Assembly (NCBI RefSeq): GCF_023276405.1
Contig: NZ_JALRMO010000001.1
Location: 310,001-374,000 of the forward strand
DNA length: 64,000 nt
Reading direction: 5' to 3'
Source: Paenibacillus hamazuiensis
Lineage (GTDB): Bacteria > Bacillota > Bacilli > Paenibacillales > NBRC-103111
The position numbers and the translations under genes were made by a program. This document shows, one piece after another, positions 484 through 51,597 of the stretch (the stretch's first letter is position 1; each line of letters opens with the position of its first letter). The notes below the pieces were generated by a model, which saw nothing but the letters and a program-made list of their open reading frames with translations, did no database searches and was not told the origin of the DNA.

Positions 484-590
484 ACCGTGCTGCAAACGAA
501 TGGAGCTAACCCGAAGAGGGGGCTCCTTTTCGGCGTTTCCGCCTGCCTGGAGACAATTGGCTCGCATCGGCAGAATTCGGATAAGCGGCT

Positions 591-631
591 GAAATGAGTT
601 TATTGAGCTTGAAGCCCATCGCCGGTATAGT
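591..631 (+). promoter_or_regulatory. Candidate promoter with upstream box before the beta-helix gene
   Basis: GAAATGAGTTTATTG (591-605) is followed 20 bases later by TATAGT (626-631). TTGAGC (603-608) and TATAGT are 17 bases apart, as in a sigma-A promoter. The same arrangement with the same spacing is found at 7563-7603 in front of the ABC importer, which suggests one activator, possibly the AraC protein at 11287, serves both. The promoter assignment is inference. Confidence 0.55.
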
Positions 632-770: not shown

Positions 771-3700
771 ATGATGATGAAATGCTGGGGAACGAGGTGG
801 ACTTCCGCATTCGTCGCAGCACTGCTTTTGCTGGGCGGCTGGCTTCAGGCAGCGGTCATTCCCGCTGAAGCGGCCGGTACGGGCTTGGAAGCTGCGGGGA
901 CGACCGGGACAGCAGGGACTGCAGGAACAACCTATTACGTCGATGCAACCGCAGGCAGCGACAACAATTCCGGCATAAGCGAGAGTTCGGCGTGGAAGAC
1001 GCTGGGGAAGGTCAACTCCACCGTATTTCAGCCGGGCGACCGCATACTGCTTAAGTCCGGGGAAAGCTGGGAAGGCCAGCTGTGGCCGAAGGGCTCAGGC
1101 AGCGCGGGCAGCCCGATCGTGATCGACCGTTACGGGACGGGAGACAAACCGAAAATCGGCGGTAATGGACTGGTGAACGATGCGGTGCGCCTGTTCAACC
1201 AGGAGTATTGGGAGATCCGCAATCTGGATATCTCCAATGCGAAGCCGGCCACCTCCACTCCGGGCGAAAATTTGGGCGATTACCGCGGGATTCATATTTC
1301 CGGAGACAACAGCCGGCAGCTCAGTTATTTCCGCATCAGCGGAGTCGACGTGCATGACGTGACCGGGGAAATCAACTGGATCAGCGGCACGCAGCCGGAT
1401 CCGCCGGAGCCGGGCATCCGTTTCAAAACCGGCTGGGACGGTTCGAAAAAAACGGGCGGCATCGTGTTCGATACGACCGTGCCAGACATTTTTAACCCGC
1501 CGAACCAGGCTACGGTGATCAATGACGTGGTCGTCGAGAAATCGACGATCCGCAATACTTCTTTTGCCGGCATTACATTTAAGCAGTATACCGGGGACGG
1601 TAAAAACGAAAATGGAGAAACCATTGCGACGGCGACCGGATGGGGCACCCGCGCGAATGCATCCGATCCGAAATTTACGCCGCATACGAATATCGTCATC
1701 CGCGACAATTTCATCACGCAGGAAGGCACCGCTTACGGCTGCAACGGGATGTATTTGACCAACATTCGCGGCGGCCTTGTGGAGCGAAATGTCGTCTACC
1801 GCGCCGGTACTTCCGGCATCGAAACGTATTACGCCGACGACATCGTCATCCAGCACAACGAAGTGTACGAAACGCAGCAGAAGGCGGGAGGCGCCGACTC
1901 GAACGGGATCGACCCGGATAAGGGGACAACGAAAATCCTGATCCAATACAACTACGTCCACGATAACGGGGACGGCATTCTCATCTGCCAGTTTTCCTTC
2001 GGCAATACGGTCATCCGCTATAACGTGATCAAGAGCAACACCCGCTACCCGATTTATTTGCATTCGGATGCGGCGGCGGTGGCGGAAGTGTACAACAATA
2101 CGATTTACAACGACAAAAGCAATTATTTGATCTACGGCTACGGCAGCTCGCTTAACGCCAAATACAACATCCGTAATAACAATATTTACTCGACGCAGGC
2201 CGGTGCCGTCTTAACGACAAGCAGTACGATTGTATACGAAAACAACAACTACTACGGCGCTGCGCTGCAAATACCGCCGGGCGATGCGCTCGCGCTCCAG
2301 GTCGACCCGAAATTCGCCGGGCCTTTGACAGGCCCTTCCGGCACGGCCGAATCCGGCCCGAGGCTCGACTCGGCGCTTGGCTTTCGCTCTCAATCGGGCG
2401 CGCTGACGGTGAATACGGGCAAGGCCGTGCCGGAGAACGGGGGCGTGGATTACGCGGGCCGCGCTTTATACAACGGCTTGCCGGATATCGGAGCGTTTGA
2501 ATATTATACGGCGGAGGGAAAGCTTACGGAATCCGTGAACGGACGGGTCAAAGACGGCACCGGCAGGCCGGTGCCGGGAGCCAAAGTGACTCTGATGTCC
2601 GGCGGCACATCCTACACGGCATTGAGCGATGCGAAAGGATACTATTCGATTGCAGATGTTCCTTTTGCCGAAAATGTGACGTTAACCGCGGAAAAAGCGG
2701 GTTATGACGCGGGAACGGCTGCTGTTTCCGTGCAGCCGCCGAACACGGTGACGCAGGACCTGACGATCACATCGAACAGTCCGTTCGGAAGCGTAACCGG
2801 CCAGATCCTCGACGAGCGCGCCGACCCGCTGGCGGGCGCATCGATCGCCGTCATGTACGGATCGGAAGCGGTCGCTTCGGGAACGTCCGACGGCAGCGGC
2901 ATCTTCAACCTGGCCCAAGTGCCGATCGGCGAAGGCTATACGGTAACAGCATCGAAGGAGGGATACCGGAACGCGGAGCGCGGCAATGTGACCGTTTCGC
3001 CCGGCGGCGTAACGGATCTGAAGCAGCTGGTTGTGGCAGGCCGCACGGCTGAAGTGGAATTTTTCCACCGGTTTAACTCGCTGGCAACAGGGGGAATAAG
3101 CTCAGGAGGCGGACTCACCGTAAGCTCCAGCGGGGGGAAAGTCGAGGTGGTCGAATTGCCGGGCGCGGAAGATAAAAGCGTGAAGCTCACCCGCTCGGCG
3201 AACAGCGGCAGCACGAGTTTGTCGCAAACATTCCCTGCCCCGCTCAAAGGGATAGTGACGATTGAAGCGGATATAATGAGAAACGATCCGTACGTTTCCG
3301 GCAACAACTGGTTCGGCGTACCGTACGTGTACGGCAGCGCAAATACGAGCCCCGGCGTCAGCGTGGCTTTCAGCAAAAACAAGATCAGAGCCTATAAAGG
3401 AACCGCCGACACGGAGCTTATGGATTATATGTTGGGCCGATGGTACAACCTGCGGATGGTTGTGAATACGGTAAACCAAACGTTCGATTTGTACATCGAC
3501 GGCGCGCTTATCATCGACGATGCCGCATTCCGCAGGGATATGCCGGATATCGGCAAAATCGACTTTTATGCGAACAGCTCGAACTACGGCAGCGTTCATG
3601 TCGACAACATCCGAATTACCCAAGGCATCGGGTACGGGAAAAACGACGCCTTGTTGATCGGCCTGACGAGCAGCGCCGGAGCGCTCAGCCGTCTGGACGA

Positions 3701-5261
3701 GACGCGTTTTGCGATCGATGTCCCCGGCGACCGGGAAAGCATTTCGCTTACGCCGACGGCGGGCAGCCCTTTCGTCAAGGCGATTCTTGTGAACGGAATC
3801 CCGACCGCAAGCGGAACGGCGTCGGCGGACGTCCGGTTGACAGGGGATCAAACGGTCATTCCCGTCGTCGTCACAGCGGAGGATGGGATAACGCAGCGAA
3901 CCTACACCGTAACGGTCAACCGGTTTTCTCCGGCGATGGATTCCTCGTTAAAGCAGCTGGCGATCAGCGTAGGGACGCTTATGCCCGAATTTAACAAGGA
4001 CATCACCTTGTATTCGGCGGCGGTTCCTTTTGATGTGCAAAATATAACGATCACCCCGACCGCCGGTTACGAGCTTGCGGACATCACGATCAGAGGCCGC
4101 ACGGTCGTCAGCGGCAAACCGTCCGCTCCAATCCCGCTCGCCGAAGGGGATAACCCGATTGAGATCTCGGTCGTTTCTGCGGACGGCACCGCAAACACGA
4201 CGTATACGGTGATCGTCAAGCGGGAAGCGGCGCCTTACGGGCAGATCGCCGGTATCGTCAAAGATACGGACGGCGGCCTGTTGGCCGAAGCGGAAGTCGT
4301 CTTGACCGCGGAAGGAAGCGGCGACCGCAAAACGGTTACAGACGCCAGCGGCGCCTATTCGTTTAAGGACGTAACACCCGGATCGAATTACACGGTCACG
4401 GCTTCCAAGGCCGGATATGACAGCGCGGCGGTTAGCGGCGTGACGGTGGCACGGGGGCAGACGACGAATGTGAGCGTGTTGTCGCTGGCCGGCCCGCCTC
4501 CGGTTTTGAAGGTTCACCAAACGGGCGGAACGATTCGTACGGCTTCGGTGGACATCACCGGACTGCTCGATAGGCCTGCCGTCGTTACGATCAACGGCAG
4601 TCCCATACCCGTAACGGCGGATTTGAAGTTTGCCAAGACGATTCAGCTGCAGCAGGGCAGCAACCGTATCGTCATCGAGGCGATTGCCGCCTCCGGCAAA
4701 AAGGCCGTTCCGGTAACGCTGGATTATTTCGTAGATTCGATCGCTCCTGTTATTAAGCTGAATCAGAGCGGCGGAACGGTGCGAGAGGCGGTCTACGTCC
4801 TTTCCGGCACTGTAAGCGAACCGGCCTCCGTTACGGTAAACGGTGCGCGGCTTCCGCTTGCGGACGGACTGAGCTTCAACGCCAGCGTTACGCTTAAGGA
4901 AGGGGATAATACGTTTGTGTTCCAAGCGGTCGACACTGCCGGCAACGATTCCGCACCGGCAACCATTCACTTGGTGCTGGACACGACGGCGCCCGTCATA
5001 AGATTAAACGAACCGGGGAGAAAAACGGGCAACCATTACAACGTCGATAAAACCGCATTAACGGTCACCGGCCGGTTGAGCGAACCGGGTGAGGTATATG
5101 TGAACGGTGTGAAGGCGGAAGTGCGGCCCGATCTGACGTTTACGGCCACCATCGAGCTGAGGCCGGGTATGAACCGGATCGAGGCCATGGCCCGCGATCT
5201 GGCAGGCAATGCGGCGGAGCCGGCCGGTTACAACGCAGTGCCTTCGGGCGCAAAGCCGTAA
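771..5261 (+). CDS. Secreted multidomain right-handed beta-helix protein (1496 aa)
   Basis: The start is ATG at 771 (three consecutive ATGs) after AAAGGAGGT. Residues about 1-35 form a signal peptide ending near AEAAG. Residues about 55-580 form a right-handed parallel beta-helix of the pectate-lyase-like type, opening with TYYVDATAGSDNNSG and ending GLPDIGAFEYY. Then come two carboxypeptidase-regulatory-like beta domains (about 585-665 and 667-750), a concanavalin/LamG-like sandwich (about 755-955), two cadherin-like beta-sandwich repeats (about 960-1055 and 1057-1152), a third carboxypeptidase-regulatory-like domain (about 1155-1240), and three Ig-like repeats built around APVIKLN and DxAGN motifs. 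No S-layer or sortase anchor is visible, so it is probably released. It is likely a polysaccharide lyase, hydrolase or binding protein working with the importer and GH115 enzyme downstream. Substrate and catalytic residues are not assigned. Confidence 0.85.
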   Translation: MMMKCWGTRWTSAFVAALLLLGGWLQAAVIPAEAAGTGLEAAGTTGTAGTAGTTYYVDATAGSDNNSGISESSAWKTLGKVNSTVFQPGDRILLKSGESWEGQLWPKGSGSAGSPIVIDRYGTGDKPKIGGNGLVNDAVRLFNQEYWEIRNLDISNAKPATSTPGENLGDYRGIHISGDNSRQLSYFRISGVDVHDVTGEINWISGTQPDPPEPGIRFKTGWDGSKKTGGIVFDTTVPDIFNPPNQATVINDVVVEKSTIRNTSFAGITFKQYTGDGKNENGETIATATGWGTRANASDPKFTPHTNIVIRDNFITQEGTAYGCNGMYLTNIRGGLVERNVVYRAGTSGIETYYADDIVIQHNEVYETQQKAGGADSNGIDPDKGTTKILIQYNYVHDNGDGILICQFSFGNTVIRYNVIKSNTRYPIYLHSDAAAVAEVYNNTIYNDKSNYLIYGYGSSLNAKYNIRNNNIYSTQAGAVLTTSSTIVYENNNYYGAALQIPPGDALALQVDPKFAGPLTGPSGTAESGPRLDSALGFRSQSGALTVNTGKAVPENGGVDYAGRALYNGLPDIGAFEYYTAEGKLTESVNGRVKDGTGRPVPGAKVTLMSGGTSYTALSDAKGYYSIADVPFAENVTLTAEKAGYDAGTAAVSVQPPNTVTQDLTITSNSPFGSVTGQILDERADPLAGASIAVMYGSEAVASGTSDGSGIFNLAQVPIGEGYTVTASKEGYRNAERGNVTVSPGGVTDLKQLVVAGRTAEVEFFHRFNSLATGGISSGGGLTVSSSGGKVEVVELPGAEDKSVKLTRSANSGSTSLSQTFPAPLKGIVTIEADIMRNDPYVSGNNWFGVPYVYGSANTSPGVSVAFSKNKIRAYKGTADTELMDYMLGRWYNLRMVVNTVNQTFDLYIDGALIIDDAAFRRDMPDIGKIDFYANSSNYGSVHVDNIRITQGIGYGKNDALLIGLTSSAGALSRLDETRFAIDVPGDRESISLTPTAGSPFVKAILVNGIPTASGTASADVRLTGDQTVIPVVVTAEDGITQRTYTVTVNRFSPAMDSSLKQLAISVGTLMPEFNKDITLYSAAVPFDVQNITITPTAGYELADITIRGRTVVSGKPSAPIPLAEGDNPIEISVVSADGTANTTYTVIVKREAAPYGQIAGIVKDTDGGLLAEAEVVLTAEGSGDRKTVTDASGAYSFKDVTPGSNYTVTASKAGYDSAAVSGVTVARGQTTNVSVLSLAGPPPVLKVHQTGGTIRTASVDITGLLDRPAVVTINGSPIPVTADLKFAKTIQLQQGSNRIVIEAIAASGKKAVPVTLDYFVDSIAPVIKLNQSGGTVREAVYVLSGTVSEPASVTVNGARLPLADGLSFNASVTLKEGDNTFVFQAVDTAGNDSAPATIHLVLDTTAPVIRLNEPGRKTGNHYNVDKTALTVTGRLSEPGEVYVNGVKAEVRPDLTFTATIELRPGMNRIEAMARDLAGNAAEPAGYNAVPSGAKP

Positions 5262-5270
5262 GTTAAAATG

Positions 5271-5304
5271 AAAAATGCCCGAGCCGGAGCTCGGGCATTT
5301 TTTC
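5271..5304 (+). terminator. Rho-independent terminator after the beta-helix gene
   Basis: The arms AATGCCCGAGC and GCTCGGGCATT pair around a CGGA loop and are followed by a T run. It lies 10 bases after the stop codon. Confidence 0.9.
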
Positions 5305-5457: not shown

Positions 5458-6858
5458 TTAAGCCGCGGTGCGCCTGCGCAGGCCAAAAGCCGTGACGGCC
5501 AGGCCGAGGACGGACGCGGCAATCGGCACGAGCAGAGCCGTACGGTAGCCGTCAAGCAGCGACTGCGTCGTTCCATCGGGAACGGTGGCGGCGATGTTTA
5601 CGGCGGTCACGACGGCAAGACCGAGCGCCGCGCCGAACTGGAAGGATGTGTTCAGAAGACCGCCGGCAAGCCCTTGCTCTTCTTCCGAAATTCCGTCCGT
5701 AGCGGCGATGGTGAGCGGACCGTAGGTCAGGGAAAAGGCGAGGCCGGTTAGAATCATGGTCGGAAACATAGCTGCGTAGGTCCAGTCGAGGCCGATCGGC
5801 AGGAACAGGGCATAAGCTGCGGCGGCAAGGCAAAAGCCGCCGAAAATAACCGGTATGTTGCCGAAGCGGTTCACGAGCCGCGGCGTCAGCGTCGGGGCAA
5901 GCACGGAATCTATGCCGACTGCGAGCAGCGCGAGACCGGTTTCGAGCGACGACCAGCCGCGCAGCTCCTGCAGGTACAAGACGGCTACGAATTGGAAACC
6001 GAAAAATGAGCCGGCAAACGCCATCGCGCCAAGGTTGGCCCGAACCAGCGAGCTTGTGGAAAGAATGCCGAGACGCATCAGCGGTGAGGCGGAACGCCGC
6101 TCGATCGCCGTGAAGGCCGCCAGAAGCACGATACTGCCGGCAAATATGGCGATCGTCCAGCCCCATCCCATGTTGGGCGCCTCAACCACGCCGTAGACAA
6201 GGAGAAGCATCGCTCCCGTCACAGTGATCGCTCCCGCAAGGTCGAAGCCTCGCGCGGAAGGCGCCGGCCGGCCCGAATTCGGAATGAGACGGATGGCGGC
6301 GAGGAAGATTACAAGCGCCAGAACAACCGGGCCGTAAAATACCCATCGCCAGCTGATTTCGCTTAACAGGCCTCCGACGACGAGTCCGAGGGAGAAACCG
6401 GCTGCCGCAGTCCCGGCATAAACGAGCAGAGCTTTGTTGCGGGCAGGACCTTCGGCGAAGCTTGTCGTGATGATGGATAAGCCGGCGGGTGTCATAAACG
6501 CCGCGCTTACGCCAGTAACGAACCTGGCAACGATCAGCATCCAGCCTTCGCTCGACAGCCCGCCCAAGCCGGAAAATACCAAAAATATGCCGAGCCAGGT
6601 CAGAAACATTTTCCTTCGTCCAAACAGATCCGCCGCCCTTCCTCCGAGCAGCATGAAGCCGCCGTAGCCGAGCACGTATGCGCTCACTACCCACTGCAGC
6701 GAGCCGGTGGACATGCCGAGTTCGGAGCGTATCGACGGCAGGGCTACGCCAATCATCGATACGTCGATCCCCTCCAGAAAAATGGCGCCGCACAGTACGA
6801 ATAATAAACCCCATGATACTTTGCTTGTATTTAAGTTGCTTTGAGTTTTTTCCCTCAT
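5458..6858 (-). CDS. MFS multidrug exporter, DHA2 (EmrB/QacA) type
   Basis: The 466-residue polytopic membrane protein has the DHA2 hallmarks near the N terminus: LEGIDVSMIGVALPSI in the first helix and the cytoplasmic loop motif A as GGRAADLFGRRK (about residues 72-83). Proteins of this type export hydrophobic drugs or metabolites by proton antiport. The ATG at 6858 has a GAGGGGG ribosome site upstream. It is a single gene on the minus strand. Its upstream region holds two near-palindromic sites (6996-7010, 7014-7029) that could bind a repressor, but no regulator gene is adjacent. Substrate unknown. Confidence 0.88.
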   Translation of the reverse strand: MREKTQSNLNTSKVSWGLLFVLCGAIFLEGIDVSMIGVALPSIRSELGMSTGSLQWVVSAYVLGYGGFMLLGGRAADLFGRRKMFLTWLGIFLVFSGLGGLSSEGWMLIVARFVTGVSAAFMTPAGLSIITTSFAEGPARNKALLVYAGTAAAGFSLGLVVGGLLSEISWRWVFYGPVVLALVIFLAAIRLIPNSGRPAPSARGFDLAGAITVTGAMLLLVYGVVEAPNMGWGWTIAIFAGSIVLLAAFTAIERRSASPLMRLGILSTSSLVRANLGAMAFAGSFFGFQFVAVLYLQELRGWSSLETGLALLAVGIDSVLAPTLTPRLVNRFGNIPVIFGGFCLAAAAYALFLPIGLDWTYAAMFPTMILTGLAFSLTYGPLTIAATDGISEEEQGLAGGLLNTSFQFGAALGLAVVTAVNIAATVPDGTTQSLLDGYRTALLVPIAASVLGLAVTAFGLRRRTAA

Positions 6859-7029: not shown

Positions 7030-7562
7030 GCCAAACTCTCCTGGCGAAGTAACTCGAAGATGCGCATTCGTGGTTATATTGAGGCGTTTGGTGCGAGCGG
7101 ACCAGTTGCTACGGAATTTGCTGCGAAGCTTATCTTCACTTTGCGTGGCGGAGCAGCGGTCGGTTCATCCTTGAGGGACATCGATTCAACATCCCCCCTG
7201 GCAGCACGGGGCCGGTCACCCGCCGTGCAATGCCGCAGCTCGCGAAAATTTTAACGGTTGCCACAGAGGTTATTGCAGGCAAATTGCGGATTTTAAAATG
7301 CTAACGGTTCTGGTTGAGGTTATTTGGGAAATAGGGTGATCTCTTAACGGATAATCCTTTAAATAAGCTCGCTGGAGACCGTTAGAAATTGAAAATGATC
7401 ATTTTGAGCCAAATAAGCTCCACCACAACCGTTACAGTTTACGAACGGCGTTCGGGCCGTGACTTAACCCTTCACTTTATCGCCAATAGCCGACGTTAAA
7501 GACCCGCCGAACGGTCGAAAACCCCCGCCGTATCAAGGAAACGGAAATCGGATAGGGCGGCG
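7030..7562. repeat. Intergenic region with TAACGG repeat units and 70 bp element copy 1
   Basis: No convincing gene is seen. TAACGG occurs at 7252, 7302 and 7345, and its complement in ACCGTTA at 7378 and AACCGTTAC at 7428. Two units carry GAGGTTATT and the inverted ones AATAAGCTC, so the units face each other. Bases 7401-7470 recur in opposite orientation at 51291-51360; the last 22 bases (7449-7470) are identical. Such clusters look like a miniature repeat family of this genome. Confidence 0.55.
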
Positions 7563-7603
7563 GAAATGAGTTTATTGCCGGACTCAAGGCCCCCGGATAT
7601 AGT
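7563..7603 (+). promoter_or_regulatory. Candidate promoter and activator box of the oligosaccharide importer
   Basis: GAAATGAGTTTATTG (7563-7577) is identical to 591-605 and lies 20 bases before TATAGT (7598-7603), the same distance as there. TTGCCG (7575-7580) could be the -35 with a 17-base spacer. About 90 bases separate it from the start codon. Confidence 0.55.
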
Positions 7604-7690
7604 GTAAATTGTTCAGCCCGGACCATAGGGCGAGAGGGAAGGAAGCTGCAGCGATCACCCGGGAAAGACACAGAGATACAGAAGGAAGGG

Positions 7691-8656
7691 ATGGCAATGG
7701 AGAAGCATCCGGCTCAAGTGACGATAAAGCCGTCGGTTCCCGTACTGACGGGGCGGCGCCGACGGGCCGTTTTTTTGCAGGATTACCAGCTGTATTTGCT
7801 GATCGGGCTGCCGATCGTTTATTTTCTGCTGTTCAAGTACGTTCCGATGTACGGAGCGGCGATTGCGTTTAAGGACTACAACATTTTTCAAGGCGTGCTC
7901 GGCAGCGAATGGGTCGGATTCGACAATTTCCGCCAGTTGTTTGCGATGAGCCAGTTTTACCAGGTCGTCCGCAATACGCTGCTGCTCAATGTGCTCGATT
8001 TGCTGTTTTCGTTTCCGGCGCCGATCGTGCTGGCGATACTGCTGAACGAGCTGCGGGTAGTGTGGTTCAAGAAAGCGGCGCAGACGATTTTGTACCTGCC
8101 GCATTTTATTTCGTGGGTCATCATCGGAGGGCTCGTTTACCAAATGTTCGCTAACAACGGCGGGCTTGTAAATAATCTGATTCAGGCGCTCGGCCTCCAG
8201 CCCATTCCGTTTCTGACGGACAAAAACAACTGGGTGCTCGTCTATCTCGGCACAGGCATCTGGCAGAGCGCCGGTTGGGGAACGATCATTTATTTGGCGG
8301 CGCTGACCGGCGTGAACAAGGAGCTGTACGAAGCGGCGGAGGTGGACGGAGCGGGCAGATTGAAAAAAATATGGCACATCACCTTGCCGGGCATCCGCTC
8401 GACCATCGTCGTCATGTTGATCATGCAGCTCGGCCATATCATGTCGATCGGCTTCGAGCGGCCTTACGTGATGAGCAACCCGCTGGTGATGGACTATGCG
8501 GAGGTCATCAGCACGTTTGTGTACAAAGCCGGTCTTCAGTCGGCACAGTTTTCGATCGCGACGGCGATGGGTCTGTTCCAGGCGTTCATCGGCATGATCT
8601 TTGTCATCAGCGCCAATGCGGTCGCCAAAAAGTTCGGGGAGCAAGGCATATGGTAA
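7691..8656 (+). CDS. Sugar ABC transporter permease, LplB type
   Basis: This 319-321 residue permease has six predicted membrane segments. Its cytoplasmic EAA loop, YEAAEVDGAGRLKKIWHITLPG, contacts the ATPase. It belongs to the LplB/YtcP branch that pairs with the second permease and the lipoprotein just downstream to import oligosaccharides. Two in-frame ATGs are possible: 7691, which abuts GAAGGAAGGG, and 7697, which has the better 7-8 base spacing and is my preferred start. No ATPase gene is in the cluster; such importers commonly use a shared MsmX-type ATPase encoded elsewhere. Confidence 0.92.
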   Translation: MAMEKHPAQVTIKPSVPVLTGRRRRAVFLQDYQLYLLIGLPIVYFLLFKYVPMYGAAIAFKDYNIFQGVLGSEWVGFDNFRQLFAMSQFYQVVRNTLLLNVLDLLFSFPAPIVLAILLNELRVVWFKKAAQTILYLPHFISWVIIGGLVYQMFANNGGLVNNLIQALGLQPIPFLTDKNNWVLVYLGTGIWQSAGWGTIIYLAALTGVNKELYEAAEVDGAGRLKKIWHITLPGIRSTIVVMLIMQLGHIMSIGFERPYVMSNPLVMDYAEVISTFVYKAGLQSAQFSIATAMGLFQAFIGMIFVISANAVAKKFGEQGIW

Positions 8657-8669
8657 GGGGGCGAATCAA

Positions 8670-9545
8670 ATGACCACAAAAATAGCGCCGCAGCGGATCG
8701 CCGACGCCGTCATCATGCTGATCGTAGGCATCGCCCTGATCGTATGCCTCGTGCCGTTTCTGCATATCCTGTCGATCTCGCTGAGTTCAAAACAAGCGGT
8801 ACTATCGAATATCGTGACGATTTTTCCCCGCGAATTCGATCCGGAGGCGTACCGCATCGTGTTCCGTGACGCCGCGATGCTGAGAGCGATGGGCGTCACC
8901 ATCTTCCTGACGGTTACGTTCACGGCGGTCAGCATGATCATGAGCATTTGCGCCGCCTATCCTTTGACGAAGGACCGGCTGAAAGGAAAATCCTTTTTCA
9001 TGCTGCTGATCGTATTTACGATGTTTTTTAGCGGCGGGCTGATCCCCGAATATTTGCTGGTGAAGGAGCTCGGGCTGCTCAACAGCCTGCTGGCGCTCAT
9101 CGTGCCCGGCATGATCAGCGCATTTAACCTGATTATCCTGAAAACGTTCTTTTCCTCCATTCCGGCGAGTCTGGAGGAATCGGCTTATCTGGACGGCTGC
9201 TCGCATATCGGCATTTTGACCCGCATCGTGCTGCCGTTGTCGCTGCCGGTGCTCGCAACGCTCAGCTTGTTTTACGCCGTCTCCCGTTGGAACGGATTTA
9301 TGGATGCGCTGTTTTACATCACGGATTCCCAATTGTTCCCGATCCAGCTCAAGCTGTATCAAATCATCATGAACAGCATGACCACGGATTTGACCGCGCA
9401 GGAAGGAGCCGCTCAGACGGAGGTTGTGCCCGAAGGACTGAAGGCGGCGAGCATCATGTTCGCGACGACGCCGATTCTGATCGTCTATCCGTGGCTGCAG
9501 CGGTATTTCGTGTCCGGCATCATGATCGGAGCCGTCAAAGGATGA
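8670..9545 (+). CDS. Carbohydrate ABC transporter permease, LplC/YtcP type
   Basis: The 291-residue permease has six predicted membrane helices and an EAA loop reading EESAYLDGCSHIGILTRIVLPL. The start ATG at 8670 follows AAGGGGG at the correct distance; reading the frame back to 8601 would run into the upstream gene. It lies 13 bases after the LplB-type permease and in the same operon, and forms the second half of the membrane channel. It ends 51 bases before the solute-binding lipoprotein. Confidence 0.92.
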   Translation: MTTKIAPQRIADAVIMLIVGIALIVCLVPFLHILSISLSSKQAVLSNIVTIFPREFDPEAYRIVFRDAAMLRAMGVTIFLTVTFTAVSMIMSICAAYPLTKDRLKGKSFFMLLIVFTMFFSGGLIPEYLLVKELGLLNSLLALIVPGMISAFNLIILKTFFSSIPASLEESAYLDGCSHIGILTRIVLPLSLPVLATLSLFYAVSRWNGFMDALFYITDSQLFPIQLKLYQIIMNSMTTDLTAQEGAAQTEVVPEGLKAASIMFATTPILIVYPWLQRYFVSGIMIGAVKG

Positions 9546-9596
9546 TAGCCGTTCTCCCCGGAGAACTATATAATAATACAAACAGGGGTGTTCCAG

Positions 9597-11186
9597 ATGA
9601 AAAATTACGCAAAAACGATCAACTTGTCGGCGGCCGCCTTGCTGCTGACCGGGTCGCTCGCCGCCTGCTCAAGCCCGGCGAAGGACGGTGCGCCGGCCGC
9701 GTCCGGCGGGAGCGGCGCTCCGAAGGAAACCGTAACGCTCAAGGTCGAAATGTTTGACAGAGGCAATACGCCGCCCGGAGCCGGGCCGGTCGACAACAAT
9801 TTTTGGACGCAGTGGATTCAGAAAAACTTCGGCGATCCGAACAACATCAAGCTGCAGTTTATTCCCGTGCCGCGCAACCAGGAGGTCGACAAGCTGAACG
9901 TGCTGATGTCGACCGGGGATGCGCCCGACATCGTGTTTACTTACGACATGAATACGATTTTCAACTATGTCAAAAGCGGCGGCTTGACCGACCTCGGCAA
10001 GCTGATCGACGAGCACGGCCCAAATTTGAAAAAGTTCCTCGGACCGGAAACGCTGGCCTACGGCGTATTCGGCGGCAAGCAGTATACGATTCCGGCCAAA
10101 CGCACGCTGCAGTACGCCCACGCCTCGATGATTCGCAAGGATTGGCTGGACAAGCTCGGACTGCCGGTGCCGAAAACGAAAGACGAATTTTACGCGGCGA
10201 TGAAAGCGTTTAAGGAAAAAGATCCGGGGAATACCGGCGGCAAGGTGATTCCTTACGGGTTTGCGGCTATGAACGGCAGCAACTATGTTTCCGCGAATAT
10301 GCTTATCAGCAGTTTCGTCAAGAAGACATCGGAGGAGGATTTCTACGCCTTGCCCGATTTCCTGAAGCCGGGCTACAAGGACGGCGTCCAGTTCCTGAAC
10401 AAAATGAATCAGGAAGGCCTCATCAGCCCCGATTTTGCACTGGATAAAGACATGAAGAAATTCGAAAGCGACGTAGCGAACGGATATGTCGGCGCCTTCA
10501 CCGCGATTGCCGCACATCAAAACCTGATGCTTCCCGGCAACGTGTTCGATACCATGAAGAAGAACGTTCCCGGTGCCGAATACGTGTCGATGGACGCTTT
10601 TACGAACGAGGAGGGCAAACGTCCGAAGGCCATTTACGAGCCGACCGGGCTCCACATGATGATCCCGAAATCGAGCAAGCGAGCGGTGGAAGCGATCAAA
10701 TATTTGGACTGGATGTCCAAAAACGATGTGCTGTTTACTCTCACCAACGGACTGGAGGGTCAGCATTATACGATGGAAAACGGCTTTCCGAAGCCGATCG
10801 CGACGGATGAGGCGAAGAAGACGTTTTACAACAACGCGGATATCGCGATCGTGATCAACGGCAAAGATTTCGGCAGCAAGGAGAAAAACATCGAAGGCGC
10901 GGCTATCACTTATCCGAATTACAAGGAGCTGGCGAAGCAAAACATCGTCAATGCGCTGACCGACGGCTACACGCCGCCGCGATTCGACCGGCCGATCGAT
11001 GCGGACATCAAATACGGCAAAATAACCGGCGAAAAGGCGCAGGAAACCGTCGTCAAGAGCATCCTTGCGAAGCCTGCGGATTTCAATAAAATTTTTGACG
11101 ACGGCGTGGCGGAGTATTTGAAAATCGGCGGACAAGCCGTAATCGATGAGAAAAGAGCCGCCTACAAGGATATGAAGAAAAAGTAA
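9597..11186 (+). CDS. Extracellular solute-binding lipoprotein, LplA type
   Basis: The 529-residue lipoprotein has a signal sequence ending in the lipobox LAAC, with Cys24 as the lipidated residue. The large size and motifs such as DAPDIVFTYD place it with the LplA/YtcQ-like oligosaccharide-binding proteins. It probably captures the oligosaccharide released outside the cell and hands it to the two permeases upstream. ATG at 9597 follows CAGGGGTG; an in-frame GTG at 9588 lies inside that ribosome site and is less likely. The specific sugar is unknown; the nearby GH115-type enzyme hints at a glucuronate-decorated glycan. Confidence 0.92.
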   Translation: MKNYAKTINLSAAALLLTGSLAACSSPAKDGAPAASGGSGAPKETVTLKVEMFDRGNTPPGAGPVDNNFWTQWIQKNFGDPNNIKLQFIPVPRNQEVDKLNVLMSTGDAPDIVFTYDMNTIFNYVKSGGLTDLGKLIDEHGPNLKKFLGPETLAYGVFGGKQYTIPAKRTLQYAHASMIRKDWLDKLGLPVPKTKDEFYAAMKAFKEKDPGNTGGKVIPYGFAAMNGSNYVSANMLISSFVKKTSEEDFYALPDFLKPGYKDGVQFLNKMNQEGLISPDFALDKDMKKFESDVANGYVGAFTAIAAHQNLMLPGNVFDTMKKNVPGAEYVSMDAFTNEEGKRPKAIYEPTGLHMMIPKSSKRAVEAIKYLDWMSKNDVLFTLTNGLEGQHYTMENGFPKPIATDEAKKTFYNNADIAIVINGKDFGSKEKNIEGAAITYPNYKELAKQNIVNALTDGYTPPRFDRPIDADIKYGKITGEKAQETVVKSILAKPADFNKIFDDGVAEYLKIGGQAVIDEKRAAYKDMKKK

Positions 11187-11199
11187 AAAAGCCGTAAGG

Positions 11200-11227
11200 C
11201 AAACCCCTTGGCGCGGCGAGGGGTTTG
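11200..11227 (+). terminator. Possible hairpin terminator or attenuator after the binding protein gene
   Basis: CAAACCCCT and AGGGGTTTG form a stem 13 bases after the stop codon. There is no long T run, so it may only stabilise the upstream mRNA or reduce read-through into the regulator gene. Confidence 0.4.
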
Positions 11228-11286
11228 TCTGCATGTTTCACATGTGAAATGTTTGGAGGACTTTCGGAGGCAGGAGATGAAGAAAC

Positions 11287-13545
11287 GTGAAGAAGACCAA
11301 TAATAACTACATCACCCGCATGCTGCTGTCGTATCTTCCGATCCTGTTTCTGACGGTCAGCGTTCTGGTTTTTATTTTTTTCGCGATCATCAATGAATTG
11401 AACGTGCGCAATGCGCTGCAGGCCAACAAGGTGACGACCGAATATACGGCCAATATGATCGACAGCTCGCTCAAGAGCATCGATATGGATTCGCGCAAAA
11501 TGATACAGAACAGCGCGGAGCTGCTGCATTTTCTCGACAGTGCGCCCGACCGGACGCTGGAATACGAGGTATCCAACGTGCTGAGCGGGCTTATGGTTCA
11601 ATACAGCTTTATCGATTCGGTCTACTTGTACCAGGCGAAAGACGGCAAGGTGCTCGATCAAAGCACGATCCGTCCGCTTGAAGAGTTTCCGGACCGTGGG
11701 TTCGTGCTGGAATCGCTGGAGAAACCGATCGCGGGCAACTGGACGGCTCCCCGCAGCAAAGGGGGAGAGCGGAACCCCGATGCCGAAGCGAAGGTGATTT
11801 CCCTCGTGCGGAAAATTCCGCTCGATTCCGGAAGTCTCGGCTGCATCATCATCAACGTTCGCGTATCCGCGCTCGATAAATTCATTGACCAGCTGATCGA
11901 CCGTAAAGTAACGCAGGCGCAAATTTACGATGCGGCGGGCCGGCCTTTTTTCCAGGAGGAGAAGCTTGAGCAGGGGATGAATGCGGACACCGTATCGGAT
12001 TATACGGGGTGGACGTACCGAACGGGCATCAAGGGAGGCCGGCTGTTCAGCTTTCTGCTTCAGGGGGGCGTCATGTGGGTGATGCTGGGGCTCGGCGCGA
12101 TTGCGTTCGCCATCGGCTCCACCTTCTATGTGACACGCCGCAGCTACAAGCCGATCGAAGCGATTTTGCACCGGATCGACCGGTTCTCGTCGGCGGTTAA
12201 AGCAAGCGACCTGAAGGAGAACAAAAACGAGTTCGCCTTCATCGATCAGGCGATCGAGAAGCTGATCACGAACAACATGGCGTTTCAGGAAAAGCAGCAG
12301 GAGCATATGGTCATACGCCGCCAGCAGTTTTTGCAAAGCCTGCTCAGCGGGGATTACGAAGCGGACGGCGGCATGTGGGAGCCGGAGCGGCAGCATTTCG
12401 GCCTCTCGGACGGGCATTTTATTGCGGCACTGCTGGAGATCGACCACTACGTGCAGTTTGCGCTGAAGTATAACCAGAAGGATCAGTCGCTGTTTAAGTT
12501 CGTCGTCAGCAGCGTGGCGTCGGAGATTGCCGAGCAGCGCCAAATGCGTGTGGTGGTCGAGTGGATTGCGAAAAATCAGCTCGTGCTGCTGCTCATTTCC
12601 GGCAGCGCGGTCGATCTGGAGCACCGGATGCTGCAGCTGTCCGAGCAGATCCGCTCCTGGATCGAAGAGCATCTGGAATTTACCGTGACGATCGGCATCG
12701 GCACGGCGTCGGACGATGCGGGCGATATTTGCCGCTCGTTCGAGGCTGCGGAGGAGGCGGTCGGCCACAAGGTGACGCTCGGCATCAACCAGATCATCGA
12801 CGCGGTGGAGGTCAAGGAAAAGCCGGCGGGCGAATGGTTTGTTTATTTGCAAATGATCCAGGCAGCCGTGCGTCATTTCCGCTTGTCGGAGCCGGAATGG
12901 ACGGGTGTTTTCGGGCGGCTGTTCCGGGAAATGGCCGTCCACCGGCTGCCGAAGGACGATGTGGAGCGGCTGCTGCATTATTTGATTTTTCAGACGGAGA
13001 GGGAGCTGGACGGGTGGCTGCCCGAAATCGTCAATGCCTGGGAGGCGCGGACGAAACCCGAGCTTCTGGAGGTGCTGGGGAAAAGGGATACGCTCGGCGA
13101 GCTGGAAAGCGGCTTCCGCAGCGCTTTTATGCAGCTGTCGGAGCTGATTGCCGAGCTCGGCCAGAGCCGCAAGCACAACAGCCTGATGAAGGAAATCCGG
13201 GATTACGTGGCCGAGCACTTCACCGATCCGAACCTTTCGCTGACGCTGCTCAGCGACCGTTTTCAAGTGAATCCGAAATATTTGAGTCAATTGTTTAAAG
13301 AGGAAATCGGGGAAAATTTCAGCGATTTCGTCATCGCGCTGCGCGTCGAGTTTGCGAAAAGGCTGCTCAGGGAAACAAGCGATACGGTGCAGGACATTTC
13401 TGCGAAAACCGGATACGCCACGGCGATTTCGTTCAACCGTATATTCAAAAAAGTGGTGGGCGTGTCGCCGGGCCAATACCGGGAGTCCGTTCAAACAACG
13501 GGGCAAATGGAAGAATATGGATCTGATGCGAAGGATGGGGGATAA
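11287..13545 (+). CDS. Membrane-anchored AraC-family transcriptional regulator
   Basis: The 752-residue protein begins with a membrane helix (about 13-38), continues with an extracytoplasmic sensor region to about residue 250, a second membrane helix (about 255-280), a long linker and a C-terminal AraC DNA-binding domain (about 640-740; NLSLTLLSDRFQVNPKYLSQLFKEE). This one-component architecture is common beside LplABC-type importers in Paenibacillus, where it senses sugar at the surface and activates the adjacent transporter. The start is GTG at 11287 after GGAGGCAGGAG. It probably acts on the box repeated at 591 and 7563, but this is inference. Confidence 0.9.
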   Translation: MKKTNNNYITRMLLSYLPILFLTVSVLVFIFFAIINELNVRNALQANKVTTEYTANMIDSSLKSIDMDSRKMIQNSAELLHFLDSAPDRTLEYEVSNVLSGLMVQYSFIDSVYLYQAKDGKVLDQSTIRPLEEFPDRGFVLESLEKPIAGNWTAPRSKGGERNPDAEAKVISLVRKIPLDSGSLGCIIINVRVSALDKFIDQLIDRKVTQAQIYDAAGRPFFQEEKLEQGMNADTVSDYTGWTYRTGIKGGRLFSFLLQGGVMWVMLGLGAIAFAIGSTFYVTRRSYKPIEAILHRIDRFSSAVKASDLKENKNEFAFIDQAIEKLITNNMAFQEKQQEHMVIRRQQFLQSLLSGDYEADGGMWEPERQHFGLSDGHFIAALLEIDHYVQFALKYNQKDQSLFKFVVSSVASEIAEQRQMRVVVEWIAKNQLVLLLISGSAVDLEHRMLQLSEQIRSWIEEHLEFTVTIGIGTASDDAGDICRSFEAAEEAVGHKVTLGINQIIDAVEVKEKPAGEWFVYLQMIQAAVRHFRLSEPEWTGVFGRLFREMAVHRLPKDDVERLLHYLIFQTERELDGWLPEIVNAWEARTKPELLEVLGKRDTLGELESGFRSAFMQLSELIAELGQSRKHNSLMKEIRDYVAEHFTDPNLSLTLLSDRFQVNPKYLSQLFKEEIGENFSDFVIALRVEFAKRLLRETSDTVQDISAKTGYATAISFNRIFKKVVGVSPGQYRESVQTTGQMEEYGSDAKDGG

Positions 13546-13546
13546 A

Positions 13547-15661
13547 ATGATTTTGACAGGGCAAAAGGAGCTGCGGTTTGGCGGCGCGATCCGCATCCGC
13601 ATTCCGGCATTGCCGGCTTCTCCGGTGGAGCACGCGCTGCGCATGCTGTCGAGAGATTGGCAGGCGGTGCTCGGAGAAGCGCCGGTGATGTCGGCGGAGC
13701 CGTACGAAGAAGCGGATCTGGGAATCCGTTATGCGGTCGATGAAGACGGGATTGCAGAGCGTCCGGAAGCGTTCGGCTTCCGGTTTGGCGCTGCGGCGGG
13801 ACAGCGTCCGCGTATGGAAATTGTGGGACGCGACGACCTGGGTCTCGTTTACGGCATATTGGAATTCAGCCGGAGGTTTTTGGGCATCGAACCGTTCTGG
13901 TTTTGGATGGACCAGCGCGTGGAGAGGCGGAGCGAGATCGCAGTTCCGTGCGTGCCCTATGATGCACCCGCGCCGAAAACCCGGTTTCGCGGATGGTTCG
14001 TCAACGACGAGGTATGCCTGATCGGCTGGAAGGAGCCGTATCCGCCGTCGCGGGAGGTTTGGCTGCCCGTGTTCGAAGCGCTGCTGCGCTGCGGCGGCAA
14101 CATGGTCATTCCCGGCACCGATCTGCCGAAAACCGGCGTTCATTTTGACGTCGCCTCCGAGATGGGGCTGTGGGTGACGCATCATCACGCCGAGCCGCTC
14201 GGAGCCGAGATGTTTCTCCGCGCCTATCCGGGGAAGGCGGCCAGCTACCGGGAAGAGCCGGAGCTGTTCGAGGCGCTGTGGCGGGAGGCGATCGAGAAGC
14301 AGAAGGGGCGCAGCGTGCTGTGGGTGCTTTCGTTCCGCGGGCAGGGCGACAAGCCGTTTTGGGAAAACGACCCTTCGTTTGATACGCCGGAAAAACGCGG
14401 CGCGATGATCGGCAAGGTCGTGCGCAGGCAATACGACATGGTCGCCGAGGCGGTGGAGCATCCGGTCTGCTGCGTCGCGCTGTACGGCGAAATCGCCGAG
14501 CTGTACAAGGGCGGTTACATCGACCTGCCGGACGACGTGATCAAAATATGGGCCGACAACGGATACGGCAAAATGGTGTCGCGCCGCCACGGCAGCACCA
14601 ACCTGCGCGTGCCGTCCCTGCCGGAGCCGGGCGATACGGGAAAACACGGTATCTATTACCACGTGACGTTTCACGATTTGCAGGCGTCGAATCATTTGAC
14701 GCTGTTTCCGGGTTCCGCCGATTTTATCCGGCGGGAGGTGGAGAGTGCGTTTGCGGCAGGTGCCGGGGAATACGTGCTCGTGAACTGCGGCAACATCCGT
14801 CCGCATGTATATACGCTCGATTTGCTGCGCGAATTGTGGAACGAGGGGATGGCGGACACGGGCAAACACTTGGACGAATTCGTCGATACGTATTATGGCG
14901 GCAGCGGCGATCTCCAATCGGAGATTGCCGGGCTGTACAGAACGTACTCCGAAGCGGCGATTCCTTATGGTCCTCATGAGGACGATTTGGCCGGCGACGA
15001 ATTTTACCACCACCCTGCCCGCAAAATCATCAGCCACTGGCTTCAGGGCAAGGGCGATCAGCCGCACCGCGGGCTGATCTGGGCGGCCGGCGACGTGCCG
15101 TTTGCGGAGCAGGTCCGCTACTTCGAGCAGCGGTGCGCCGAGGGGCTGGAGCGCTGGTCGGAGTGGCTGGAGCGCTGCGACAGGCTGATTGACAAGCTGA
15201 ACGATCCGCAGGACCGGCAGCGCGTCTCCGATCATCTGCGGTTTCACGGCGTCCTGCACCGTTCCGGCTGCGAAGGCTTTATGCGGCTGTGCCGCGCATA
15301 CAAAGCTTATACGGCCGGTCATTATCCGCAAGCGTTCGTGTTCGCCTCCCAGGCGTTATGGGGCTACCGGGAAGGGCTTCAAGCTTTGCGCGAGGCGGAG
15401 CACGGCAAGTGGGAGCGCTTCTACAGCGCGGACTGGCTGACCAACATCGAAAGCACCGTGAACAACGTGGATACGCTCAGGCGGTTTTTGCGGATGCACG
15501 GAGACAGCCCGGACTTTTTCCTCTGGTACAAGGAATACCTCATGCCGGAAACGGAGAAGCACATCTACCTGGAAAACACGCACCGCAAGCCGCTGTCGGA
15601 CGACGACCTGGCGGCCCGGTTAAAGATGAAGTTTGATTCCGCAGGGAGTTTGCTTCCCTAA
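13547..15661 (+). CDS. Glycosyl hydrolase family 115-like protein
   Basis: The 704-residue protein has features of GH115 (xylan alpha-1,2-glucuronidase): an N-terminal region with GRDDLGLVYGILEFSRR, then RGWFVNDEVCLIGW, and a catalytic-region stretch GIYYHVTFHDLQ. It lacks a signal peptide, so it would act on imported fragments. Characterised GH115 enzymes are usually longer, near 900 or more residues, so this one is short. ATG at 13547 follows GGATGGGGG, right after the AraC gene with one intervening base, so the two are co-transcribed. Its stop overlaps the stop of the convergent gene by 4 bases. Family assignment is by motif recall. Confidence 0.7.
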   Translation: MILTGQKELRFGGAIRIRIPALPASPVEHALRMLSRDWQAVLGEAPVMSAEPYEEADLGIRYAVDEDGIAERPEAFGFRFGAAAGQRPRMEIVGRDDLGLVYGILEFSRRFLGIEPFWFWMDQRVERRSEIAVPCVPYDAPAPKTRFRGWFVNDEVCLIGWKEPYPPSREVWLPVFEALLRCGGNMVIPGTDLPKTGVHFDVASEMGLWVTHHHAEPLGAEMFLRAYPGKAASYREEPELFEALWREAIEKQKGRSVLWVLSFRGQGDKPFWENDPSFDTPEKRGAMIGKVVRRQYDMVAEAVEHPVCCVALYGEIAELYKGGYIDLPDDVIKIWADNGYGKMVSRRHGSTNLRVPSLPEPGDTGKHGIYYHVTFHDLQASNHLTLFPGSADFIRREVESAFAAGAGEYVLVNCGNIRPHVYTLDLLRELWNEGMADTGKHLDEFVDTYYGGSGDLQSEIAGLYRTYSEAAIPYGPHEDDLAGDEFYHHPARKIISHWLQGKGDQPHRGLIWAAGDVPFAEQVRYFEQRCAEGLERWSEWLERCDRLIDKLNDPQDRQRVSDHLRFHGVLHRSGCEGFMRLCRAYKAYTAGHYPQAFVFASQALWGYREGLQALREAEHGKWERFYSADWLTNIESTVNNVDTLRRFLRMHGDSPDFFLWYKEYLMPETEKHIYLENTHRKPLSDDDLAARLKMKFDSAGSLLP

Positions 15662-25144: not shown

Positions 25145-25440
25145 GCCGCTCTCAGCCTCACGTCCCGGCAATGCCGGGGTCTGAGAGCGGCAAAATCCGC
25201 TCTCGGCCCATCTTGGGGGCTATTTCGGGCGGGAAAGGTCGGCGGAGAGCCGGAAAAACCGCCTCTCAGCCTCACGTCCCGGCAATGCCGAGGTCTGAGA
25301 GCGGCAAAATCCGCTCTCAGCCCATCTTGGGGGACATTTCGGGCGGCAAAGGAGGCGGAGAGCCGGAAAAACCGCCTCTCAGCCTCACGTCCCGGCAATG
25401 CCGGGGTCTGAGAGCGGCAAAATCCGCTCTCAGCCCATCC
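25145..25440 (+). repeat. Tandem repeat of about 113 bp with embedded hairpins
   Basis: A unit starting CTCAGCCTCACGTCCCGGCA begins at 25151, 25265 and 25378 (periods 114 and 113); the third copy is partial. Each contains CTGAGAGCGG-CAAAAT-CCGCTCTCAG, a 10-base perfect stem, and the smaller inverted repeat CCCGGCAATGCCGGGG. The spacer parts differ by a few substitutions. It lies between kinase and importer genes and could act as a terminator array or an insulating or mobile hairpin element. Confidence 0.85.
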
Positions 25441-51215: not shown

Positions 51216-51597
51216 GTTGAAGCCTCGTCATAGGCTTTGTCAACAGGTAAGTCAACAATTTACCATCCCCCTGGCTGTTCCAGGAGACTCGGGTTAAGTC
51301 ACGGCCCGAACGCTGATCTTAAGCTGTAACGGTTGTGACAGAGCATATTTAGCTCAAAATACCGTATTCAGATTCTAAACGGTTGCCAGGCATATATCCC
51401 TCTTTTTGTCCAATTGCGTCGAAACGTTGAACAAATTTTTACGGAAATAAGGCATTATAATGAGCAATTTGTTAACACACCCCACAACGGAAGCCGAACA
51501 TGATATAGTCTTTCCCAAAGGCATAGAACACTGTGATAAATATCATATGCAAACGGAAAAGAGATTTAGCATAGTGTACTTGGGAGATGAGATTCAT
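51216..51597. repeat. Intergenic region with 70 bp repeat copy 2
   Basis: Bases 51291-51360 are the reverse complement of 7401-7470, with 22 identical bases (51291-51312, GGGTTAAGTCACGGCCCGAACG, given here only by position and key part) and matching spacing through the CTGTAACGG segment. AAACGG at 51378 resembles the TAACGG units. The rest is the qox leader. Although an open frame runs from 51460, it has no ribosome site until 51598. Confidence 0.6.

Follow-up and report, generated by a model that had tools for sequence, protein, structure and literature searches.

A candidate tandem operator, probably read by an AraC-type regulator, at a beta-helix gene and an LplBC-type importer unit

The window analysed here (the whole stretch of 64,000 nucleotides presented above) carries two promoters preceded by an identical 15-mer. 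Comparison with relatives indicates that this sequence belongs to a tandem operator which, at both sites, is very probably read by the AraC-type regulator encoded at 11287-13545 (hereafter 11287), so that the two units would be co-induced as one glycan-use system. In the proposed mechanism, 11287 would be anchored in the membrane, sense a glycan-derived signal through its dCache-like region, bind both half-sites in the same orientation and touch RNA polymerase at a weak sigma-A -35 element (class II activation). The co-induced genes would be the beta-helix unit (771-5261) and the run lplB-lplC-SBP-araC-GH115 (7691-15661; SBP, solute-binding protein); the latter presumably forms an operon and, as it includes the araC gene, a positive loop would result. 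A beta-helix gene at a distance of 7 kb, with an unrelated MFS gene in between, would thereby join the same glycan system. Soil bacteria carry many related regulators whose targets are still to assign; for one of their glycan systems, the analysis would supply a specific operator together with a likely regulator and its set of targets.

Two promoter sites and the units behind them

As claimed in the initial annotation, GAAATGAGTTTATTG occurs in identical form at 591-605 and 7563-7577 on the forward strand, and TATAGT follows exactly 20 bases past each copy. In a promoter scan, both sites display a sigma-A-like layout, TTGAGC-17-TATAGT at 591 and TTGCCG-17-TATAGT at 7563, the scan being unspecific in the window (14 promoters found against 8.5 expected). 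GCGGC(T/G) ahead of the box and a G behind TATAGT are also common to both sites. The 20-base spacers and the flanks are mostly unlike each other, which, for the spacers, argues against a recent duplication of the two sites. The elements identified are as follows.

573-586, forward strand: distal half-site of the beta-helix operator, GAATTCGGATAAGC, 18 bp upstream of the proximal half; aligned to profile R1 (see below)
591-605, forward strand: proximal half-site of the beta-helix promoter (the 15-mer); its terminal TTG opens the -35 TTGAGC (603-608)
626-631, forward strand: -10 TATAGT of the beta-helix promoter, 17 bases from the -35
7531-7538, forward strand: conserved stretch farther upstream, TATCAAGG, from comparison with the relatives' sites
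7544-7557, forward strand: distal half-site of the importer operator, GAAATCGGATAGGG, 19 bp upstream of the proximal half; from profile alignment and half-site scan
7563-7577, forward strand: proximal half-site of the importer operon (the 15-mer); its terminal TTG opens the -35 TTGCCG (7575-7580)
7598-7603, forward strand: -10 TATAGT of the importer operon promoter, 17 bases from the -35

An alignment of 27 sites, none of them from the window, was converted into a sequence-only profile of 90 positions (R1). The consensus of the aligned sites shows a second, similar stretch upstream of the box (CGGAATTnGGTTAATnnnCnGAAATnAGTnTATTGTG). The half-site is about 14 bp long, approximately GAAWTNRGTTWAT, and forms a tandem direct repeat with a period of 18-19 bp; farther upstream, TATCAAGGG is common in the relatives' sites. 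Scanning with a matrix of the proximal half, from which the tested site was left out each time, placed the best upstream match at 18 bp (19 sites) or 19 bp (8 sites) in 27 of 29 cases, with distal halves reaching p<0.05 singly, in shuffles of the upstream stretch, in only 16 of 27. The exceptions are the window site at 591 and L135:7580, where the distal half is visible by alignment only.

Fifty sites were read for their -10 and spacing. The -10 is TATAGT in 46, TATATT in three and GATAGT in one; the box is separated from it by 20 bases in 20 sites, by 21 in 29 and by 22 in a single one. Outside this set, two more complete sites show, on inspection by eye, TTTAGT at 19 bases (G025) and TATTCT at 21 bases (L068:267). 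The TTG of the box is present in all 48 sites counted. The arrangement is that of an AraC/XylS operator, a direct repeat that overlaps the -35, with the proximal half ending in the -35 TTG. The 15-mer singled out initially is real, but it covers just one half of a tandem operator, the one nearer the promoter, and its last three bases are those of the -35; the name "activator box" given to it denotes a presumed function.

The initial annotation had named a genome-wide repeat without promoter association as the finding that would speak against its reading. In the 8.8-Mb genome (two contigs) the exact 15-mer has two copies, both at promoter-like sites. Copies with one or two mismatches number 24, against 18 for the reversed pattern, so that inexact copies are at about chance level, and none of these 24 has TATAGT 20 bases farther on. 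Within the window, allowing up to three mismatches yielded just the two exact copies, where shuffling leads one to expect 1.87, and several other exact 15-mer repeats are present among the matches listed for the 64 kb. For these reasons the bare repeat was rejected as sufficient proof; it is weak evidence, and the case for a shared operator rests on comparison across species. Other repeats of the window are a 23-base intergenic sequence, GCGTTCGGGCCGTGACTTAACCC, at 7448-7470, upstream of the importer promoter, which has an inverted copy 44 kb off at 51291-51313, and a direct repeat at about 25149-25411, whose copies begin at 25149, 25263 and 25376, 113-114 bases apart.

The genes lying behind and between the two promoters are listed below.

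771-5261, forward strand: multidomain beta-helix protein, 1496 aa (Beta_helix, CarboxypepD_reg and cadherin-like domains)
5271-5302, listed on the minus strand: hairpin resembling a terminator, behind the beta-helix gene, with a 14-pair stem flanked by A and T runs (the scan is unspecific overall, with 20 found against 20.9 expected in shuffles)
5458-6858, minus strand: MFS transporter between the two units; scores highest, though below the cut-offs, with NCBIfam models of drug-efflux transporters
7691-8656, forward strand: LplB-type permease of a CUT1-like ABC importer (Pfam BPD_transp_1)
8601-9545, forward strand: LplC-type permease (BPD_transp_1); the listed start overlaps lplB
9588-11186, forward strand: solute-binding protein (SBP_bac_1); best solved matches are AlgQ1 and others
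11287-13545, forward strand: AraC-type regulator with a dCache-like region, a GGDEF_2-like domain and a C-terminal HTH_18 (residues 655-733)
13547-15661, forward strand: GH115 glycoside hydrolase (Pfam Glyco_hydro_115, 204.9 bits against a cut-off of 27)

Judging from its N-terminal sequence, the beta-helix protein is presumably secreted. It comprises several beta-sandwich domains; similarity to solved lacto-N-biosidases is only local, and the score with the model of the lacto-N-biosidase LnbX (NCBIfam NF047897) is below the cut-off (73.9 bits against 2500). An orthologue of about 73% identity lies behind the same element in G053. We see no reason to count the MFS gene into the system. The second unit has the components of an LplBC/CUT1-type importer, with BPD_transp_1 found twice and SBP_bac_1 once; an ATPase gene beside the importer was not found among the nine window proteins scanned with Pfam. 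The true start of lplC is probably farther in than listed. In relatives, the lplB orthologues behind the element are 74-84% identical, broken copies excluded. Membership of the last gene product in GH115 agrees with solved GH115 relatives detected down to E 1.6e-28; its reading frame is listed from 13352, and the probable start, read by eye, is the ATG at 13547, one base past the araC stop. Between the SBP and araC genes, at about 11200-11230, a G+C-rich hairpin-like sequence with no clear T run can be discerned by eye; on account of it, araC and the GH115 gene may be expressed less.

Occurrence of the element across genomes

The window 15-mer followed by 20 bases and TATA was sought in 104 genomes of the family. 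At up to one mismatch it was found in five, twice each in the genome of the window (G000), G040 and G053. An orthologue of 11287 is present in 14 of the 104 (54-100% identity, the next best match being 38%; ten candidates were scored per genome), and all five genomes with the pattern belong to these 14. With G000 omitted, the pattern occurs in 4 of 13 genomes with the orthologue against 0 of 90 others (Fisher p 1.6e-4). Allowing two mismatches made the search uninformative: 18 of the 104 genomes matched, nine of them lacking the orthologue, and the reversed control matched 16.

Profile R1 recovered both sites of the window, at 7526-7610 (E 3.8e-13) and 572-634 (E 2.1e-11), the next match having an E-value of 0.31. 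In the whole genome the same two sites came out at 5.3e-11 and 2.8e-9, followed by a match at 0.058. At E<=1e-5 the profile matched 15 of the 104 genomes, namely the 14 with the AraC orthologue and G072. This split (14/14 against 1/90) is largely by construction and its Fisher value unusable, as 12 of the 15 had supplied sites to the profile; those held out are G000, G025 and G072. A profile over 40 genomes is subject to stricter scoring filters, and its E-values are rough. In G072, a full-length orthologue was not found among the ten candidates scored, and about 0.8 kb behind one of its sites there is an incomplete AraC relative, with 41% identity over residues 1-367. The AraC relative and the SBP behind the element in this genome are in pieces (L233:10909-12937); the cluster looks as if it were decaying, or the assembly faulty. 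The sole other genome of the same genus among those searched (G001) lacks both orthologue and element, its best AraC match being 34% and its best profile E-value 0.16.

Seen from the regulator, 20 of 21 aligned AraC orthologues have the element in the stretch covered, often with a 21-base spacer; the exception, L067, has no site in a stretch that begins beside araC. Orthologue and element are also found together in G324 and G139, which database labels assign to another family of the same order. A pattern loosened to GAAATNRGTTTATTG...TATAGT matched, at up to one mismatch, 8 of the 14 orthologue genomes against 0 of the 90 others, a result that is not independent since the loosening was made after the relatives had been seen. 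In the same form it matched three of 288 other genomes of the order (G324, G139 and G390); at up to two mismatches it matched 72 of 392 genomes, in many cases at other promoters.

A further sample comprised 80 GH115 loci taken from named records; the AraC orthologue is present in 11. With a matrix made from 12 sites, a score above 20 was reached in 7 of these 11 against 0 of the 69 without orthologue; five of the seven had supplied the matrix, and L052 and L071 are independent. Looser searches later gave sites in L065, L068 and L085. In L082 and L117, two GH115 loci without the orthologue, the profile search gave no match to the element.

The profile was also run on 34 stretches from 25 genomes or records, where it produced 55 matches at E<=0.01. 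After three fragments were dropped, 52 sites from 22 genomes were examined for downstream genes, which were sorted by hand, several sites sharing one operon. The gene behind the site encodes an importer component in 24 cases, an SBP in five, the AraC orthologue in six, GH115 in two, a beta-helix protein in two (the window and G053), another hydrolase in eight, a cupin-AraC protein in one and a response regulator in one; at three sites no gene was called. The assignment of beta-helix gene, importer, AraC and GH115 to one glycan-use system, made initially from the window, holds up in that the association with the box recurs in relatives: for AraC orthologue and importer in many species, for GH115 in several, for the beta-helix gene only in G053 apart from the window. 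A second AraC regulator, of cupin type, lies behind the element in G040 (L131:9681-9766), which might amount to a cascade.

The likely reader of the element

The C-terminal HTH region places 11287 in the AraC/XylS family (HTH_18, 77.9 bits against a cut-off of 33.6; HTH_AraC, 30.9 against 26.6). Hydropathy peaks at about residues 9-40 and 256-280 flank the dCache-like region (dCache_1, E 1.6e-6, 28.3 bits, below the Pfam cut-off of 45), and the protein is probably membrane-bound.

Among the 21 aligned orthologues, the HTH2 helix reads ISF(S/N)R in eight, NSFNR in one (G031) and TSFI(R/K) in twelve. At position 10 of the box, 26 of the 27 sites belonging to the (I/N)SF(S/N)R group have T, the one deviating site being in G031; the TSFI(R/K) group has C there in 19 of its 21 sites, and one A and one T in the other two. 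The count omits 7 of 55 rows (three of G072, one of G201 and three fragments), and the groups were drawn only after box and helix had both been seen, with G031 departing from the helix pattern. As the groups correspond to a single split on a tree of the sensor half of AraC, they amount to one event. G096 is a second event of parallel change: its AraC is the only one of the 21 in which a conserved R is replaced by K, and at four of the five sites of this genome both halves have AAC at half-site positions 8-10, where other sites have GTT; the fifth (9989) has GTC. Shared ancestry could yield such a parallel between box and helix without causation. The HTH2 residues presumably align with the DNA-contacting positions of MarA helix 6. 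Altogether, the parallel change and the presence of sites before araC itself (6 of 52) make 11287 the likely reader of the box.

The identity of the two boxes had been taken from the outset as best explained by one activator. Identity alone is no proof of this; the comparison across species does support a common activator, and we infer binding and activation by 11287 from it. One alternative is that another activator, an AraC paralogue or a response regulator, reads the box and that 11287 merely sits in the cluster. Genomes that share the AraC gene share the whole cluster with it, and another factor travelling along might account for the pattern; many genomes hold AraC paralogues 30-38% identical to 11287, and in G201 a box-like promoter (34.5 bits, L217:9308-9366) precedes an AraC-type response regulator, no 11287 orthologue having been found in the 20 kb covered. 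Yet the element accompanies the 11287 orthologue in different genera and even in a second family (G324 and G139), the box changes together with the HTH2 helix in this very protein (two events), and six sites lie directly before its gene. A different reader thus appears improbable.

The remaining explanations dispense with an activator. It might be argued that the near-fixed distance to TATAGT (a -10 found in 46 of 50 sites) and the invariant TTG mark the conserved sequence as the recognition element of an alternative sigma factor. But TTGNNN-17-TATAGT is a sigma-A layout, the distance does vary between 20, 21 and 22 bases, and neither a tandem half-site upstream nor a parallel with the helix of an AraC protein would be expected of a sigma factor, which leaves this explanation a very small probability. 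Smaller still, to the point of being negligible, is that of an incidental repeat or an old promoter duplication devoid of regulatory meaning. The other 15-mer repeats of the window and the near-expected number of copies at up to three mismatches are in its favour; against it, box and -10 are identical even though spacers and flanks have diverged, a profile made without the window sites finds both of them and no third at E<0.05 in 8.8 Mb, and in other species the element is found again, ahead of a variety of genes.

If 11287 is the reader, the pairing of recognition helix and box bases might extend to its paralogues. Eleven of 108 weak profile matches, among the matches listed, lie within 1.5 kb of one of 136 listed AraC paralogues (30-38% identical to 11287), all 11 on the same strand, against a rough expectation of 0.13; four listed rows inside known clusters and 14 orthologues were omitted from this test. 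From this, and from the two parallel box and helix changes among the orthologues, we envisage, tentatively and with slightly more doubt than conviction, that dCache-AraC sensors beside LplBC importers in Paenibacillaceae share one operator architecture, in which tandem half-sites run up to the -35 TTG, with paralogues distinguished by a few bases at half-site positions 8-10 that the HTH2 helix would recognise. If true, this would be a readable code, from which many unknown glycan systems could be assigned to regulators by sequence alone.

Targets, substrate and known systems

Five of the eight other hydrolases behind the box were scanned and belong to GH53 (twice), GH39, GH43 and a GH106-like type; three were placed by eye. 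Solved relatives of the GH43 protein include exo-beta-1,3-galactanases. The GH106-like protein scores above the cut-off of Pfam (51.5 against 29) and stays below that of a full-length rhamnosidase model (97.4 against 1300). For the GH115 protein of the window, the best solved match is BtGH115A (5BY3), to which only residues 75-500 of the window protein align, and xylan-active GH115 enzymes are the next-scoring. An excerpt of PMC13059095 presents BtGH115A as the single GH115 enzyme active on arabinogalactan. Glucuronoxylan, which GH115 alone would suggest, was set aside as the first choice of substrate, since the GH53, GH39, GH43 and GH106-like enzymes behind the box fit arabinogalactan better; xylan keeps some probability. 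The gene content suggests a (4-O-methyl)glucuronate-decorated arabinogalactan as the substrate, an assignment that we favour over xylan as the more likely one and that is less certain than the regulation.

The AraC, XylS and RhaS activators resemble 11287 in having HTH_18 and two direct-repeat half-sites touching the -35. The latter differs from them in being longer, in its dCache-like sensor region, and in the half-site sequence and its period of 18-19 bp; the period of the AraC operator is longer, 21 bp. Large AraC-type proteins beside LplBC-like (Lpl/Ytc) importers of pectic glycans, of the YesS/YtdP type in Bacillus subtilis, are among its nearer counterparts in arrangement; we know of no operator for YesS/YtdP-type regulators.

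Among published sites, XylS binds two 15-bp direct repeats, as cited in an excerpt of PMC9722767. For Caldicellulosiruptor bescii, excerpts of PMC8579813 report "tandem repeats with large spacers" that belong to AraC regulators, inferred to be activators, and lie ahead of promoter elements at the mapped starts of carbohydrate-use genes. These regulators are alike in being single-component AraC proteins, and differ as proteins and in their substrates; "arabinogalactan" is absent from the main text of that article. An operator of the present type was not seen in the excerpts of PMC4765114 and PMC10766802, and no paper on this regulon was found among the matches listed in the open-licence literature (titles and abstract starts). 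In conclusion, the regulon would be a case of conventional gene control of the AraC-family tandem-operator type, in which the protein group, the operator sequence and perhaps the substrate differ from those of C. bescii.
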